Of a stretch of 64,000 bases of DNA, positions 10,787-16,985 are shown one piece after another. Under the pieces are notes generated by a model. It worked only from the letters and a program-made list of their open reading frames with translations, made no database searches and had not been told where the DNA came from. How positions within the stretch are numbered: the first letter of the stretch is position 1; every line of letters starts with the position of its first letter. The DNA is taken from contig NZ_BMTY01000013.1 of assembly GCF_014649915.1 (NCBI RefSeq), forward strand, positions 86,356-150,355. The letters run 5' to 3'. Position numbers and translations under genes: made by a program. This stretch comes from Streptomyces toxytricini (GTDB lineage Bacteria; Actinomycetota; Actinomycetes; Streptomycetales; Streptomycetaceae).

Positions 10787-12322
10787 GTGGGCAGGCAGGA
10801 GAGCACCGACGGACACCCCGGGGACGCCGCCGCCGGGCACATACCCGCCGCCCCGGCCGCGGCCGCCGGCCGGCCCCCGGCCTCCGTCGTCGCCGCCCTG
10901 ATGCTCACCATGGCGCTCGTCGCCCTGGACGCCTCGGTGGTCGCCACCGCCGTCCCCCAGATCGTCGGCGACCTCGGCGGCTTCTCCGTCTTCTCCTGGC
11001 TCTTCGCCGGCTACCTCCTCGCCATCACCGTCACCCTCCCCGTCTACGGCCGGCTCTCCGACACCTTCGGCCGCAAGCCCGTCCTCCTCTTCGGCACCGC
11101 CCTGTTCCTCCTCGGCTCCCTGCTCTGCGGCATCGCCTGGGACATGGCCTCGCTGATCGCGTTCCGCATCGTCCAGGGCCTCGGCGGCGGCGCCCTCCAG
11201 GGCACCGTCCAGACCCTCGCCGCCGACCTGTACCCGCTGAAGGACCGCCCGAGGATCCAGGCCCGCATGTCCTCCGTGTGGGCCGCCTCCGCCCTCGCCG
11301 GCCCGGCCCTCGGCGGCCTCCTCGCCGGATACGCCGACTGGCGGTGGATCTTCCTCGCCAACCTGCCGCCCGCCGGGCTCGCCCTCTGGCTGGCCGCCCG
11401 CCACCTCGCCGAACCCGCCCGCGCCCCCGGCCGCCGCGGCCCCGTCGACTGGGCCGGCGCCCTCACCATCGCCGCCTGCGGCAGCGTCCTGCTCTTCGCC
11501 CTCGTCCAGGGCGGCGTCGCCTGGCCGTGGCTGTCCTGGCCGTCCCTCGCCCTGCTGGCCGCCGGCGCCGCCCTCGCGGCCGCGGTCGTCGCCGTCGAAC
11601 GCCGGGCCGCCGACCCGATCCTGCCCGGCTGGGTGTGGCGGCGGCGCACCACCGCCGCCGTGAACCTCGCCCTGGGCGCCCTCGGCCTCCTGATGGTCGC
11701 CCCGACCGCGTTCGTCCCCACGTACGCCCAGACGGTCCTCGGCCTCGACCCGGTCACCGCCGGGCTCGTCATGTCCGCGATGACCCTCAGCTGGCCTCTG
11801 TCCGCGGCCCTGAGCCAGCACGTCTACCGCCGCCTCGGCTTCCGCGACACCGCAGCCCTGGGCATGGCGGCCGCCGCCCTGACCCTCTTCACCTTCACCC
11901 GGCTCCCCTACCCGGGCAGCCCGTGGCAGCCGGCCCTCGTCATGCTGGCCCTGGGCGCAGCCCTGGGCCTGTTCCAACTCCCCCTGGTCGTCGGCGTCCA
12001 GTCAACGGTCGGCTGGGCGGAACGCGGCACCACCACCGCATCCGTCCTCTTCTGCCGCCAGGTCGGCCAGAGCCTGGGCGCGGCCCTCTTCGGAGCGGTG
12101 GCCAACGCCACCCTCACCACCCACCTGACCGGCGGCCACACCCTGGACGCACTCCCGGAAGCCCTGGACACCGAGGCGGCCGAACCCGTCCGCCGAGCAG
12201 TGGCCACGGCGGTGGACCACGTCTTCCTGGGCGCGACGGCCGCAGCAGCGGCAGCCCTGGCGGTCCTCCTCTTCCTGGCTCCCCGCCGCTTCCCGGTCCT
12301 CCCGGACCAGCAGTTGTCATGA
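10787..12322 (+). CDS. MFS drug exporter, DHA2 (EmrB/QacA) family
   Basis: About 511 aa with roughly 14 hydrophobic segments. Motif A (GRLSDTFGRKPV), the Asp-containing first helix (ALDASVVATAVPQI) and motif C (GPALGGLL) identify the DHA2 proton-antiporter family, which exports hydrophobic or cationic drugs and sometimes an endogenous metabolite. I chose the GTG at 10787 because AAAGGA sits five bases upstream; a GTG at 10748 would add 13 residues but has its purine run directly adjacent. The upstream palindromes suggest repressor control. The downstream membrane-protein gene is 46 bp away and probably co-transcribed. Confidence 0.92.
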   Translation: MGRQESTDGHPGDAAAGHIPAAPAAAAGRPPASVVAALMLTMALVALDASVVATAVPQIVGDLGGFSVFSWLFAGYLLAITVTLPVYGRLSDTFGRKPVLLFGTALFLLGSLLCGIAWDMASLIAFRIVQGLGGGALQGTVQTLAADLYPLKDRPRIQARMSSVWAASALAGPALGGLLAGYADWRWIFLANLPPAGLALWLAARHLAEPARAPGRRGPVDWAGALTIAACGSVLLFALVQGGVAWPWLSWPSLALLAAGAALAAAVVAVERRAADPILPGWVWRRRTTAAVNLALGALGLLMVAPTAFVPTYAQTVLGLDPVTAGLVMSAMTLSWPLSAALSQHVYRRLGFRDTAALGMAAAALTLFTFTRLPYPGSPWQPALVMLALGAALGLFQLPLVVGVQSTVGWAERGTTTASVLFCRQVGQSLGAALFGAVANATLTTHLTGGHTLDALPEALDTEAAEPVRRAVATAVDHVFLGATAAAAAALAVLLFLAPRRFPVLPDQQLS

Positions 12323-12368
12323 CCGCCGTCCCCCGAGTAGACCTGTCCGACAACCACACGGGGGAGAC

Positions 12369-13316
12369 ATGACCGCAACACTTCTCGCACTCGCGTTACT
12401 GATCGCCGCAGTGGGCCCCGCGGCCTGGCGCCTGCGCCGCAGCCCCGCCTTCATCACGGGCCGCGACGGCCGCCTCTCGACCTCCACCGCCCTGGCCCTC
12501 GCCTGGACGGTCATCCTCGTCTGGCTGCTCGTCGCGGTCCTCGCCCACGCCCTCACGACAGGCGACAGCACCCGCTACCTCAACGCCGACCCCGGCCCCC
12601 TGTCCCCCCTGGCCACGGTCTACCTCCCTCTCCTGGGCGGCCCGTACACGGCCCTCATCGGCGCCAAGGCCGTCGTCGGCATCCGCCTGCAACACGGCAC
12701 CCTCGCCAAACCGGCCTCCGCCTCCCCCCACCGCCCCCTCCGCGAACTCATCGCGAACGACAGCGGCCGCACCGACCTGGTCGACCTCCAGTACGTCGCC
12801 CTGAACACCGTGACGATGCTCTACGTCGTCGCCGCGTTCCTCGCCGACGCAGAAGCGGGCCTCCCCGACCTCCCGCCCCAACTCTGGGCCCTGACCGGCG
12901 CCCCGGCAGGCGCGTACCTGCTCAACAAACTGGCGACCCGCCCCAACCCGGTCATCACGGCGGTGTCCCTCACGAACGACACCCTCACGGTCCGAGGCGG
13001 CGGCTTCACCCCGGACGCCCGCCTGGAACTGAACGGCACCCCGGTCCCCACCACAGCCCCCACCCCCGACACCCTGACAACCCCCCTCCCCCACCCCACC
13101 CACCCCCTCACCGCGGTGGTCACCTCCCACGGCCTCCGCAGCGACCCGTACACGCACACACCACCCACGCACACACCGGCCCCCCACACACCGACCACCC
13201 CCACACCGACGGAAGACGAACGCACACCGGCGGGGGACGAAGGCACACCGGCGGGGGACGAACGCACACCGGCGGGGGACGAACTCACACCCCCGGGGGC
13301 TCGGCCCGGCCGGTGA
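12369..13316 (+). CDS. Membrane protein with repetitive DERTPAG tail and a TTA codon
   Basis: 315 aa, not recognised. Four or five hydrophobic segments occupy residues 1-190. A short beta-like segment follows (ITAVSLTNDTLTVRGGG, then FTPDARLELNGTPV), resembling the start of an IPT/TIG-like or Ig-like unit. The tail is low complexity: Thr/Pro/His-rich, then three and a half copies of a 7-residue unit (DERTPAG) encoded by 21-bp DNA repeats. Codon 10 (12396-12398) is TTA, the rare Leu codon read in Streptomyces only by the bldA tRNA, so translation may be tied to development. Spacing to the MFS gene suggests one transcript. Confidence 0.72.
   Translation: MTATLLALALLIAAVGPAAWRLRRSPAFITGRDGRLSTSTALALAWTVILVWLLVAVLAHALTTGDSTRYLNADPGPLSPLATVYLPLLGGPYTALIGAKAVVGIRLQHGTLAKPASASPHRPLRELIANDSGRTDLVDLQYVALNTVTMLYVVAAFLADAEAGLPDLPPQLWALTGAPAGAYLLNKLATRPNPVITAVSLTNDTLTVRGGGFTPDARLELNGTPVPTTAPTPDTLTTPLPHPTHPLTAVVTSHGLRSDPYTHTPPTHTPAPHTPTTPTPTEDERTPAGDEGTPAGDERTPAGDELTPPGARPGR
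13215..13298 (+). repeat. 21-bp tandem repeat encoding DERTPAG units
   Basis: Copies start at 13215, 13236 and 13257, with a degenerate fourth at 13278. The unit begins GACGAACGCACACC and the copies are nearly identical. The array is in frame within the 3' end of the membrane-protein gene. Copy number is likely to vary between strains by slippage. Confidence 0.85.
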
Positions 13317-13445
13317 CGGGGGTGGGGCGGGGTGCCGTCCGGGGTGTAAAACGTGATTTGTGGCCCCCACTCGGCATAACGACACAACTCCAGCCAAGGG
13401 GCCATAAATCATGCCTACCCCGGACGGCACCCCGCCCCGCCCCCG
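13317..13445. repeat. 129-bp imperfect inverted repeat (large hairpin element)
   Basis: Left arm 13317-13367 and right arm 13398-13445 pair over about 48 bp. An outer block of 29 bp has one mismatch (containing GGGGCGGGGTGCCGTCC), an inner block of 14 bp has one mismatch (TGATTTGTGGCCCC against GGGGCCATAAATCA), and a short unpaired bulge separates them. The loop is 30 nt. The inner arms are unusually AT-containing for this genome. It lies just after the stop of the membrane-protein gene. It may be a terminator, a MITE-like relic or a structured RNA; the sequence alone does not decide. Confidence 0.8.
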
Positions 13446-13501
13446 GCGCCGGCCCCACCCGAAGCCCCCGCCCCCCAGCCCCGCCGGCGCTTGAGGCGCG
13501 G

Positions 13502-13528
13502 GGGTGCGGGGGCGGAGCCCCCGCACCC
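13502..13528. terminator. Hairpin of the common Streptomyces GGGGGCGGAGCCCCC type
   Basis: Perfect 12-bp arms GGGTGCGGGGGC and GCCCCCGCACCC around a GGA loop, 14 bp beyond the stop of the DivIVA-like gene. From memory, near-identical GC palindromes recur in many intergenic regions of Streptomyces chromosomes. It could act as a bidirectional terminator for the two convergent genes. Confidence 0.65.
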
Positions 13529-13541
13529 ACCACACCCCGCG

Positions 13542-14435
13542 TCAGCCCTCCGCCGGAGCCGGCCGACCCGTCAACGCCGCCAGACTCGCCCGCACATGAC
13601 TCATGTGCGCCCGCATCTCGTCCTCGGCCTCCGCATGCTCCCGCAGGATCCGCTCGGTCTCCCGCCCGATCCGCTCCTCCCGCACACGCGCCTGCGCCAG
13701 CAGCTCGGCGGCCTGCGCCTCGGCGTCCTCCTGCCCGTGCCGGGCGGCTTCCTCCGCCTCGGCGAGCCCGCGCCGCGCCTCGGCGAGCCGCCCCTCGACG
13801 TGCCGCTCCAGCTCGGCGAGCCGGTCGTCGAGCCCGTTCTCCCGTACGGCGAGGGCCCGTTCGGCGGCCTCCCACCGCTCGGCCTGTTCCTGCTCCTGCT
13901 CGGCGAGCAGCTCGTGCGCCCGCCGCCGCGTCTGCGCGAGCACGGCCTGCGCCTGGTCGCGCCACCCGGCGGCGTCCTCGCGGGCCGCGGCCCGCAGCGC
14001 GTCCGCTTCCCGTTCGGCGGCGAGCAGCCCCTGCCGGGCCCGGACCTCGGTCTGCTCGCGCACGGCCTGCGCGTCCTGCCGGGCCAGCTCGGCGACCCGC
14101 TCGGCGTGCGCCTCGGCGGCGGCCAGCGCATCGGCGGCGTCGGCCTGCGCGTCGGCCCGTACGGCCTCGGCCTCCTCCTGGGCGAGCGCCAGGATCTGCC
14201 GGGCCCGCTCGCTCAGTTCGTCGTAGGTCTGCGGCGGCAGCGCGGCGACGACCTCCCGCAGCCGTTCCGCCTCCGCTTCCATCTGCTTGGCGAGGACGGT
14301 CAGCCGCGCCACCCGCTCCCAGGCCTCGTCCCGGCCGCCGGAGAGCCGCGCGAGGTAGCGGTCGACCTGGTCCGTGCGGTAGCCGCGGCGTACGGTCGTG
14401 AAACCCTGTCCGTGAGGTGACATGCGTGCAGCCAT
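13542..14435 (-). CDS. DivIVA-like coiled-coil protein
   Basis: 297 aa. The N-terminus (FTTVRRGYRTDQVDRYLARL, about residues 12-31) matches the DivIVA/GpsB-type lipid-binding motif, with a GY-x-x-x-x-VD core. The rest is an almost uninterrupted Ala/Glu/Arg-rich coiled coil to residue 285. Such proteins assemble into filaments or membrane-associated scaffolds; Streptomyces has several (DivIVA, Scy, FilP), and this appears to be an additional one. The start is ATG 14435; ATG 14423 (MSPHGQG) is equally possible. TTGACA occurs about 35 bp upstream. It lies 123 bp downstream of the deaminase/SUKH gene on the same strand. Confidence 0.75.
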   Translation of the reverse strand: MAARMSPHGQGFTTVRRGYRTDQVDRYLARLSGGRDEAWERVARLTVLAKQMEAEAERLREVVAALPPQTYDELSERARQILALAQEEAEAVRADAQADAADALAAAEAHAERVAELARQDAQAVREQTEVRARQGLLAAEREADALRAAAREDAAGWRDQAQAVLAQTRRRAHELLAEQEQEQAERWEAAERALAVRENGLDDRLAELERHVEGRLAEARRGLAEAEEAARHGQEDAEAQAAELLAQARVREERIGRETERILREHAEAEDEMRAHMSHVRASLAALTGRPAPAEG

Positions 14436-14558
14436 CCTGGAAGCGCCTCTCTCGCGGGGATTGCTGTCAAGGATGCGGCATGTGCCCCCTGAAGCCCGAA
14501 TGGCCGGGCCGGGACCCCCGGCAAGGGTCCCGGCCCGGCCATGCCGGTGATCATCCGA

Positions 14559-16985
14559 TCAGAGCAGTCCGTCCCACATCTGCTCCAGCAGCACGGACCA
14601 CCAGCTCTCCGGCGAGGTCAGCGCGGCACTGTCGAGGCCGGCCAGATTCGCCTGGAAATCGACCGTCCAGCGCCCCGCCTGCTCGGGCGTCAGATGCTGC
14701 CGCAGCCGCCACATGTGCCCCAGCATGGCGATCGACCGTGCGAACTGCGGCAGGCTGGAGTTCACGAACTGCGGCGGTACGGGCGCCCCGCCCGGCCCGC
14801 CTTCGACGGGCACGGCGACGATGTGCGCGGTCCCGTACTGCACGCACAGCGCCTTGCCGAAGTCGCTGCCGATGACCAGGTACGAGCCGGCGTCCGACGC
14901 GGGCTGCACCTGCCGCTGCAAAGCCAGCTCGGCCAGCGTCGGCACCGGCTGCCCGGGCACGGCCTGCGCCCAGAAGAACGGCCCGAAGTCCGTCGGCAGT
15001 CCGGCCCACATCAGCGTCTGCGCCACGATGTCGGGCACGCCCTGCCGGGAAACGGCCCGCTGGTCGAAGCGGAACACGCCCTGCGGCCCGAACGCCCCGG
15101 CGAGTTCCGCGCCGATCGCGTCGAGCGGGATCGCCGGCTGAAGCGGCACCTGCGGCAGCGGCGCCCGTACCGGAGCGGGGCGCGCCGGCCCGTCGGCCAC
15201 CTGGTGCAGTTCGCCCTGGTGGGTGAGGAGGTGCCGCATGCCGGCCTGCCGCCCGGCGTGGTCCTTCCCGTAGGGGGCGACGCTGGTGATCCGCACCTGC
15301 GGCCAGGTCTCGCGGATCATCCGGGCGCAGTAGCCGCCGGGAAGTTCGCAGGACTCCAGCTCGGTGTGGAGTTCCAGCACCTGCTGCGGCGGCACGTTCA
15401 TGGCGCGCAGCTCGTGCAGGATCTGCCACTCCGGGTGCGGGGTACCGGGCGCCGAGCGGCGGATGATCTGCTGCTCGGAGCCGTCGTTGCCGCGGTAGCG
15501 GAGTACGGCCTGGTAGCCGGGGCCCACGGTGGGCGTGCCGGAGGCGGCGGGCGCGGGCGGCGGCGCCGACGGGCCGGCCACGACGGCGGGCCCCGCCAGC
15601 ATCGTCGCGGCGTGCTCGATGCCGCCGGGCGGCGTACCGGGTCCACCCGGAGCGGCGGGCGGCGCGGGCGGCTGCGCACCCGGCGCCGGCGGCGGACCAG
15701 GAGGCGCAGGCGGCCCACCCACCACGGCAGGCCCCGCCAGCATCGTCGCGGCATGGTCCAGCCCACGCCCCATCGACCCCGGAGCCCCAGGAGGCCCGGG
15801 AGGCACAGGCGGCTGCCCCGCACCCGGCGCACCAGGAGCACCCGGCGCCGGCGGCGGACCAGGAGGCGCAGGCGGCCCACCCACCACGGCAGGCCCCGCC
15901 AGCATCGTCGCGGCATGGTCCAGCCCACGCCCCATCGACCCCGGAGCCCCAGGCGGCCCGGGAGGCGCAGGCGGCTGCCCCGCACCCGGCGCACCGGGAG
16001 CGGCAGGGGGCGCGGGCGGCGCGACGGGCGCCTTGCCCGTGGGCTCCTGCGCCAGCGCCTCGGGAGACCCCGGCGCCGCAGCGGGCGCGGGCGGCGCCCC
16101 GCCCAGGTCGAGCGCGGGCGCGATCGCGGTCTTCGGCAGCGCACTGCCCGCGGGCATGAGCTGCGTCCGGGCCTCAGGCGACACCGACGGCGCCGCGGAG
16201 GCATCGTCCAGGTCCGACCCGGACAGCGGTGGCGCGAACACGGTCGCGGGCAGCGGCACCGAGGCGTCGTCCGCACCCGGCGTCACATCCGTCCCCGCCC
16301 ACGGCGTCGCCCCGACGGGCACCCCGCCCTCGGCGGTCGGCTCGTACGGCACCTCGCGCCGCAGCGGCACCGGCTCGGGCACCTCGGCGGCCACCGCCGG
16401 CGACACGTCCGCAGCGCCGGAACCGGCAGCCGCACCCGAAGCCGCATCCCCGTCCCCGGAAGCGGCAGCACCCGCACCCGCAGACGCACCGGCAAGACCA
16501 TCGGCAGCCGCAGCCGGACCCGGAACGGACTCCGCAGCCGGAACGGACTCCGCCACCGGCACCGGAGCCGGCGCCGGCGGAATCCCCGCCCGGTCCGCAG
16601 CCTCCTGCAACCACTCCGGAGGACTCAGCATGAACGACGTCTGCTCCGAGTCGATCCGCGGCGCCGGCACCGACGGCTCCGCCGCCTGCACGGCCGCGGC
16701 CCCGTACTCCTCCTCGTACCGGCGGATGACCTCACCCACCGGCAACCCCGGCCACAACGTCACCTCACCGCTGTCCCGCGCGATCACCAGCCGCTGCCGG
16801 CCACCGCCGGCCACCGGCCCGCCCGCACGGTCCTCGGCCCACACCACGAAGCCGAGCCCGAACTCCCGCACCCGCACCTCGCGGTGCTGGTACGGCGGCA
16901 CGCCCCCGTTGATCCACTCCTCGGCGCGCTCCTGCGCCTGCGCAAACGTCACCATCGCGCCGTCACCCTTCCACCGGCGCCGCAC
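14559..16985 (-). CDS. Fusion: YrhB-like domain, repeat linker, nucleic-acid deaminase-like domain, SUKH-4 domain
   Basis: 808 aa. Residues 1-80 look like a YrhB-type immunity domain (AQERAEEWINGG, VWAEDR). Residues 85-470 are Pro/Ala/Gly-rich and contain a 54-residue tandem duplication with a degenerate third copy. Residues about 482-600 resemble polymorphic-toxin nucleic-acid deaminases: HTE with His540 and catalytic-type Glu542, then Cys546 and Cys553 in SCELPGGYC as candidate zinc ligands. Residues about 630-808 (FGPFFWAQAVPG, LVIGSDFGKALCVQ, SWWSVLLEQMWDGLL) match SUKH-4 immunity proteins. No signal peptide or secretion domain is seen, so it is cytosolic. It overlaps the stop of the upstream nuclease-like/SUKH gene by 23 bp. 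Enzyme and antidote folds in one chain suggest self-limited activity or an immunity scaffold; this is inference. Confidence 0.72.
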   Translation of the reverse strand: MRRRWKGDGAMVTFAQAQERAEEWINGGVPPYQHREVRVREFGLGFVVWAEDRAGGPVAGGGRQRLVIARDSGEVTLWPGLPVGEVIRRYEEEYGAAAVQAAEPSVPAPRIDSEQTSFMLSPPEWLQEAADRAGIPPAPAPVPVAESVPAAESVPGPAAAADGLAGASAGAGAAASGDGDAASGAAAGSGAADVSPAVAAEVPEPVPLRREVPYEPTAEGGVPVGATPWAGTDVTPGADDASVPLPATVFAPPLSGSDLDDASAAPSVSPEARTQLMPAGSALPKTAIAPALDLGGAPPAPAAAPGSPEALAQEPTGKAPVAPPAPPAAPGAPGAGQPPAPPGPPGAPGSMGRGLDHAATMLAGPAVVGGPPAPPGPPPAPGAPGAPGAGQPPVPPGPPGAPGSMGRGLDHAATMLAGPAVVGGPPAPPGPPPAPGAQPPAPPAAPGGPGTPPGGIEHAATMLAGPAVVAGPSAPPPAPAASGTPTVGPGYQAVLRYRGNDGSEQQIIRRSAPGTPHPEWQILHELRAMNVPPQQVLELHTELESCELPGGYCARMIRETWPQVRITSVAPYGKDHAGRQAGMRHLLTHQGELHQVADGPARPAPVRAPLPQVPLQPAIPLDAIGAELAGAFGPQGVFRFDQRAVSRQGVPDIVAQTLMWAGLPTDFGPFFWAQAVPGQPVPTLAELALQRQVQPASDAGSYLVIGSDFGKALCVQYGTAHIVAVPVEGGPGGAPVPPQFVNSSLPQFARSIAMLGHMWRLRQHLTPEQAGRWTVDFQANLAGLDSAALTSPESWWSVLLEQMWDGLL
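15679..16002 (-). repeat. Two tandem 162-bp repeats inside the SUKH-4 fusion gene
   Basis: Copies at 15679-15840 and 15841-16002 differ at only about four positions; a degenerate third copy of the core lies at roughly 15580-15678. Each encodes 54 aa with the conserved core HAATMLAGPAVV inside Pro/Gly-rich sequence (about residues 328-436 of the protein). The exact multiple of three keeps frame, so copy number can vary without breaking the gene. Confidence 0.9.

Follow-up and report, generated by a model that had tools for sequence, protein, structure and literature searches.

What is the long palindrome that sits between two convergent genes of Streptomyces toxytricini? Within the window, the whole stretch of 64,000 nucleotides that was analysed, positions 13317-13445 carry an inverted repeat for which the first-pass annotation had offered three readings: a MITE-like relic, a cruciform or recombination site, and a structured RNA at the 3' end of a TTA-containing gene. 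We propose, with a probability of roughly 0.6, that it is a solitary copy of a dispersed, extragenic, REP/REPIN-like hairpin family of Streptomyces.

Folding of 13300-13460 gave -127.3 kcal/mol, in comparison to a mean of -76.7 (standard deviation, 5.1) for 200 dinucleotide shuffles, none of which equalled this energy (z = -9.9), indicating that the inverted repeat is real. The two paired blocks, bulge, AT-containing inner stem, and 30-nt loop described beforehand were all recovered in the fold; the arms are long, as claimed, with 46 paired bases in 13317-13445 rather than about 48 bp. The hairpin reaches out to 13308-13454, its base being lengthened by 8 pairs (13308-13315) beyond one unpaired base on each side, and a repeat search delimited arms at 13308-13345 and 13417-13454 that are 92% complementary. 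Its parts are as follows.

13308-13454, plus strand (orientation of the conserved core): whole hairpin element, from the fold, the repeat search, and the covariance model.
13317-13346, plus strand: 5' outer arm, 30 bp with 13416-13445, from the fold; covarying helix 1.
13346-13351, plus strand: GTAAAA, 5' side of the internal loop (GTARAR in many relatives), from the fold and the alignment.
13352-13361, plus strand: conserved core CGTGATTTGT, from the pattern search, alignment, and covariation.
13362-13367, plus strand: 5' side of the inner stem, covarying between lineages, from the fold and covariation.
13368-13397, plus strand: variable terminal loop of 30 nt, from the fold and the alignment.
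13398-13404, plus strand: 3' side of the inner stem, from the fold and covariation.
13405-13413, plus strand: conserved core TAAATCATG, from the pattern search, alignment, and covariation.
13416-13445, plus strand: 3' outer arm, from the fold and covariation.

The inner stem comprises 16 bp (13352-13367 with 13398-13413), and the pairing of TAAATCATG with CGTGATTTGT includes two G-U wobbles. The internal loop is asymmetric, with 13347-13351 facing 13414-13415; G13346 of the GTAAAA segment is drawn as paired, and three weak pairs are drawn inside the 30-nt loop (13368-13397). The immediate surroundings contain the following features.

12369-13316, plus strand: upstream gene of 315 aa, without Pfam match at E 0.001, from the ORF list and Pfam search.
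13476-13528, plus strand: second dispersed repeat, CCCCGCCGGCGCTTGAGGCGCGGGG..GGAGCCCC, from a pattern match at 13479-13503, with outer limits set by eye.
13542-14435, minus strand: downstream convergent gene encoding a DivIVA-domain protein, from the ORF list and Pfam search.

The TGA codon of the upstream gene (13314-13316) falls within the extended base of the hairpin. The TTA codon ascribed to this gene was located near its start, at 12396-12398, provided that translation begins at 12369, making bldA control possible. Tandem repeats of 21 bp (13202-13306) extend the C terminus of the same gene just before the hairpin, and in relatives without the element the gene seems, by eye, to stop earlier. 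On the other side, a separate and shorter stem of 23 bp (14495-14547) occupies the gap that divides the DivIVA-type gene from the next one, and positions 14559-16985 encode a protein of 808 aa that combines a SUKH-4 immunity domain, an XOO_2897-like deaminase domain, and proline-glycine repeats.

Like intrinsic terminators and other 3'-end stem-loops, the element is a strong stem between convergent genes, and it probably acts in addition as a block or buffer against read-through from either gene, as any such stem might. It differs from these structures by its far greater length, its lack of a T-run, its conserved internal core, and its membership of a dispersed family. A search for intrinsic terminators, defined as a stem followed by a T-run, returned no site in 12000-15000. 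No Rfam family reached its gathering score, the best match in 12800-14000 being a microRNA model with 47 bits of the 72 required; the microRNA models were rejected, since the scores were below threshold and any long hairpin may resemble them.

Is the hairpin repeated? A BLAST search for other genomic copies returned only the one in its own genome, whereas relatives carry up to 32. No further copy was found in the 7.2-Mb assembly by BLAST (40 of 150 candidates scored) or with the covariance model (150 of 21335 candidates scored). Across the window, searched with filters off, there was neither a second copy nor a neighbouring partner, the next place scoring 20.8 bits versus 114.6. BLAST of 295 Streptomyces genomes, with two candidates scored in each, revealed relatives of full length in about a dozen, frequently as two copies at separate locations, and an asymmetric core common to these relatives was recognised on reading them. 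Exact matches to the core pattern, CGTGATNTGT-N38-66-AAATCATG, occurred in 35 of 392 Streptomyces genomes, G000 included, with 1 to 32 copies per positive genome (32, 21, 19, 18, and 14 in the richest); the reversed control pattern had no match in any of the 392. A covariance model built from 24 copies matched 63 of the 392 genomes, its copy counts being floors, since nine candidates per genome were scored. These searches uncovered a dispersed family among Streptomyces, and the prospect of a single-copy sequence with neither conservation nor a transcript boundary, which the first-pass annotation had set against its own proposals, fails on conservation. The status of the sequence as a member of a repeat family is firm.

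The family appears confined to this genus in the material covered. An order-wide covariance search matched 26 of 197 genomes, all of them in Streptomyces, from a sample that covered six genera. Among the matches listed, the model confirmed as carriers S. lavendulae CCM 3239, S. jumonjinensis, S. scopuliridis, S. abyssalis, S. flavidovirens, S. goshikiensis, and S. bikiniensis. At least 114 stretches matching the pattern were collected in a wider sequence search; all 25 listed as Streptomyces matched the model, as did nine of the other 89 at E < 0.05, all nine being Streptomyces records. A match in Winslowiella (E 0.06) was taken as chance, and extension of the family beyond Streptomyces was rejected on these listed matches. 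A 161-kb Streptomyces plasmid carries one copy, placed between two genes that run in the same direction, which counts in favour of the REP/REPIN-like reading. Viral contigs contained 88 pattern stretches, and none of the 80 run through the model matched at E 0.1; phage records returned no match to one query. Several draft contigs end in or beside hairpin copies (G209:C79, G241:C50, G042:C53 and C59, and G277:C18). We recognised no description of this Streptomyces family in the open-access literature searched.

Conservation of the structure was assessed with 50 loci of different genomes, 44 of which passed a script filter and 43 of which were aligned, one per genome (L375 was omitted and the start of L065 corrected by hand). 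In the 43 rows, 90.5% of cells were paired, a share biased upward by the filter, which demanded the core and complementary arms, versus 34 to 47% with partners slid by 1 to 3 columns. Two-sided changes affected 134 cells, in comparison to 43.9 ± 4.8 in shuffles, none of 500 reaching 134. The core helix is nearly invariant: of its two G-U wobbles, one is kept in all 43 rows and the other in 41, and the third core pair is U-G, U-A, or C-G in 37 of 40. These wobbles are pairs on the strand bearing CGTGATTTGT and A-C mismatches on the opposite strand. In a diverged subfamily (L376, L378, L387, and L388) the core reads GGTTATTTG...TAAATAATCC, with the two G-U positions retained by eye; its copies lie on either side of a TetR-like gene (G494 and G257) and of a phosphomutase-like gene (G494 and G373). 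Retention of the wobbles suggests that the folded CGTGATTTGT strand is the recognised form.

A functional RNA hairpin at gene 3' ends, acting as a bidirectional terminator or mRNA-stabilising stem with a protein-recognised core and kept by selection without being mobile, would accommodate the very stable fold, the stem covariation, and core wobbles compatible with RNA of the core strand. Also counted for it are the short abundant transcripts that map to palindromic sequences in Streptomyces coelicolor, many of them in 3' UTRs, most of which their authors interpret as probable decay intermediates (PMC4681348). Across 140 copies, G-U and A-C occurred at a ratio of 213:167 in the arms and of 45:92 in the inner stem, which argues against this explanation; RNA selection on one strand was rejected, G-U not being clearly favoured over A-C. 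The 43-row set contained 48 G-U versus 21 A-C, but 21 of the 48 came from a single column pair.

The position of the copies relative to genes bears on the same alternative. Among 113 copies placed with a purpose-written simple gene caller, 40 had convergent neighbours, 33 plus 27 had tandem neighbours, 6 had divergent neighbours, and 7 fell within a called gene or at the edge of a locus, so that 106 lie in called intergenic gaps and the family is extragenic. With one count per gap, copy-bearing gaps were convergent in 39 cases, tandem in 54, and divergent in 6, compared with 17, 92, and 88, respectively, for the remaining gaps in these loci that measured 100 bp or more. The convergent excess (Fisher, 9e-10) and the divergent deficit (5e-13) became 2e-4 and 8e-9 with the copy-bearing gaps left in the background, in tests whose gaps are not independent when they belong to one genome or to orthologous loci. 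Occurrence at gene 3' ends, in convergent gaps above all, favours a 3'-end RNA. In tandem gaps, however, the core strand ran opposite to the genes in 33 cases and along them in 27 (p 0.52), indicating that the asymmetric core is transcribed at part of the sites only. With this random orientation, the absence of a T-run, and G-U barely exceeding A-C in the arms, the structured RNA envisaged in the first-pass annotation is weakly supported, its covarying stems notwithstanding, and we regard an immobile RNA element as possible though rather unlikely.

A nearly invariant asymmetric core within a long palindrome could also be a DNA site for a chromosomal protein, placed by selection and acting as a cruciform or extruded hairpin in nucleoid organisation, recombination, or decatenation. 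The imperfect pairs show a weak strand bias, and 15 of 18 copies in G074 point toward oriC (relative to dnaA), both in line with such a site. This orientation was missing in the other three genomes counted (11 of 18 in G089, 3 of 9 in G098, and 15 of 32 in G225; pooled p 0.25), and a replication-strand bias, clear in one of four genomes, was rejected. Since most congeners are without the element by both pattern and model, the site cannot be essential; copy numbers ranging from 1 to 32 among pattern-positive genomes also speak against a selected DNA site, which we consider improbable.

The arrangement of neighbouring copies favours the REP/REPIN-like reading. All 17 distinct close pairs (cores less than 450 bp apart) found among the loci retrieved, from 11 genome records of which some are closely related and with at least one orthologous locus pair (G039/G268), were of the "- then +" type, i.e., inverted with their 5' ends facing. 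Five wider pairs, up to 4 kb, comprised three "- then +", one ++, and one --; by eye, the four at 450 to 1000 bp comprised two, one, and one, respectively, and the -- pair encloses a degenerate + copy. Comparison of doublets within one genome (n = 8; six in G225, one in G388, and one in G480) revealed that corresponding ends are 92 to 100% identical in G225, 84 to 91% in G388, and 94 to 99% in G480, whereas the two ends of one doublet share 74 to 82% identity. Thus, in the doublets compared, each unit consists of a left-type and a right-type hairpin. Doublets were present in both orientations in G225 and G480, and their spacers are recognisably common between doublets in G388 and G225 by eye. 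Most of the copies read are singlets, the window copy among them, so the doublet unit is insufficient for all of the spread unless singlets move or doublets decay.

Palindromic ends, small size, and dispersed copies would also be expected of a classical MITE, which derives by deletion from a DDE insertion sequence, has terminal inverted repeats, and duplicates its target; like MITEs, the hairpin is a short, repeated palindrome that carries no gene. In the family it is the centre that is conserved, not the ends, and the two hairpins of the doublets compared differ. The check for target-site duplications, made by eye in G-C-rich flanks without a sequence-exact empty site, gave none that was clear. 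The genes enclosed by the wider pairs examined look, by eye, to be of the TetR, phosphomutase, and secreted types; no transposase was recognised among them, and a cargo transposon was rejected. A classical MITE is very improbable on these grounds. The MITE-like relic of the first-pass annotation nevertheless comes closest of the earlier readings, as regards a dispersed and apparently mobile repeat.

Presence and absence at orthologous loci were followed through the DivIVA-type gene, a close orthologue of which exists in 25 of 392 genomes. The element was found on its 3' side in six (G000, G038, G173, G074, G042, and, in a degenerate form matched by the covariance model, G039), is possible in G277, whose contig terminates there in similar sequence, and was not found at 18 of the 25 gene ends. 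The gene on the far side of the element varies: detectable similarity to the window extended over both flanks in G074 only and was restricted to the DivIVA side in G038, G042, and G173. In G330, G071, G209, G012, and G320 the same two genes are apparently kept and the element is absent, by eye. In an earlier, wider-range set of 30 loci, the core words occurred only in the window's own locus. Absence from these 18 gene ends, like that of the pattern from 357 of the 392 genomes, disfavours a 3'-end RNA kept by selection. Element positions common to orthologous loci fit old insertions kept by function as well.

Copies are also more alike within than between genomes, which again disfavours an immobile 3'-end RNA: among 98 copies, mean identity was 0.90 within genomes (439 pairs) versus 0.74 between them (4314 pairs). 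Paralogues on both sides were available for 40 orthologous pairs; the best paralogue was closer than the orthologue on each side in 20 of them, on at least one side in 29, and on neither in 11. Higher within-genome identity is compatible with recurrent insertion and with gene conversion alike. Homology stops near the arm ends for copies in G173, G089, and G098, which favours the REP/REPIN-like reading; in G225, G074, and G256 weaker similarity reaches beyond the arms, into the spacers of doublets or into the second repeat, which counts against it.

The second repeat, located next to the hairpin in the window, has a core, GCCGGCGNTTGAGGNGCGGGG, with 38 copies in its own genome (at most one mismatch), 197 in G173, and 227 in G256, the control giving 0 to 1 hits per strand. 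It adjoins several hairpin copies in G173, G074, and G256, and these neighbouring copies resemble mosaic REP clusters. Since it is absent or nearly absent in G225, G089, and G098, the hairpin and the second repeat are independent families.

REP-like repeats are best known in proteobacteria. ERIC elements, found in Enterobacterales, are intergenic imperfect palindromes of about 127 bp; they are not known to form inverted doublets. By this general shape the hairpin resembles ERIC in its length, imperfect palindrome, and intergenic location, and differs in host group. REPINs are REP doublets forming hairpins, for which excision junctions have been sought by deep sequencing, and a Y1 transposase is proposed to spread REP-like repeats (PMC3116915). 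The same study provides the closest parallels to the Streptomyces family: extragenic palindromes, inverted close pairs that can count as a replicating unit, compensatory changes in stems, and singlets beside doublets (PMC3116915). Three differences separate the two systems. The Streptomyces unit is about 130 nt and the REP core is short (a few tens of bases), the two members of a Streptomyces doublet belong to distinct types wherever they were compared, and a Y1 gene is missing in the four richest Streptomyces genomes.

The enzyme was sought as Y1_Tnp (PF01797) in 28 genomes. It was present in six of them, four of 15 carriers (G256, which is the fifth richest in copies, G098, G277, and G085) and two of 13 others, and absent in the other 22, including G000, G173, G225, G089, G074, G388, G042, and G039. 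Because the four genomes richest in copies are without it, a Y1/RAYT transposase was rejected as the general engine of the family; as a mover in G256, G098, G277, and G085, it is not excluded. The family is not classed as REP because tests for a Y1 association and for a short core both had a negative outcome.

We infer the mobility of the REP/REPIN-like family from its dispersal, the anatomy of its doublets, and its pattern of presence and absence, and we infer its mechanism likewise. The unit would spread as DNA, chiefly as inverted doublets, with singlets being remnants or half-units. The strand bearing CGTGATTTGT would fold while single-stranded, and a trans-acting enzyme, which in the richest genomes would be other than a Y1/RAYT transposase, may recognise its core. 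Copies would then persist between gene ends, where they are least harmful. The consistent replication orientation expected under single-stranded DNA transposition was not seen in the four genomes counted, and the window copy itself bears no sign of ever having moved. More tentatively still, and with the odds somewhat against it, the family may represent a class of miniature mobile DNA in Streptomyces, made of a non-coding spacer and two inverted, non-identical hairpins of about 130 nt as left and right ends, which would be recognised, folded as single strands, via the nearly invariant wobble core and would be moved and homogenised by a non-Y1 enzyme.

If this is true, a REP-like lifestyle with far longer hairpins, two distinct end types, and no Y1 in the richest genomes would mean that such a lifestyle has more than one engine. 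The core and the countable doublets would provide a defined sequence with which to seek the enzyme, and the family would explain one class of the very stable hairpins found at gene ends in Streptomyces genomes.
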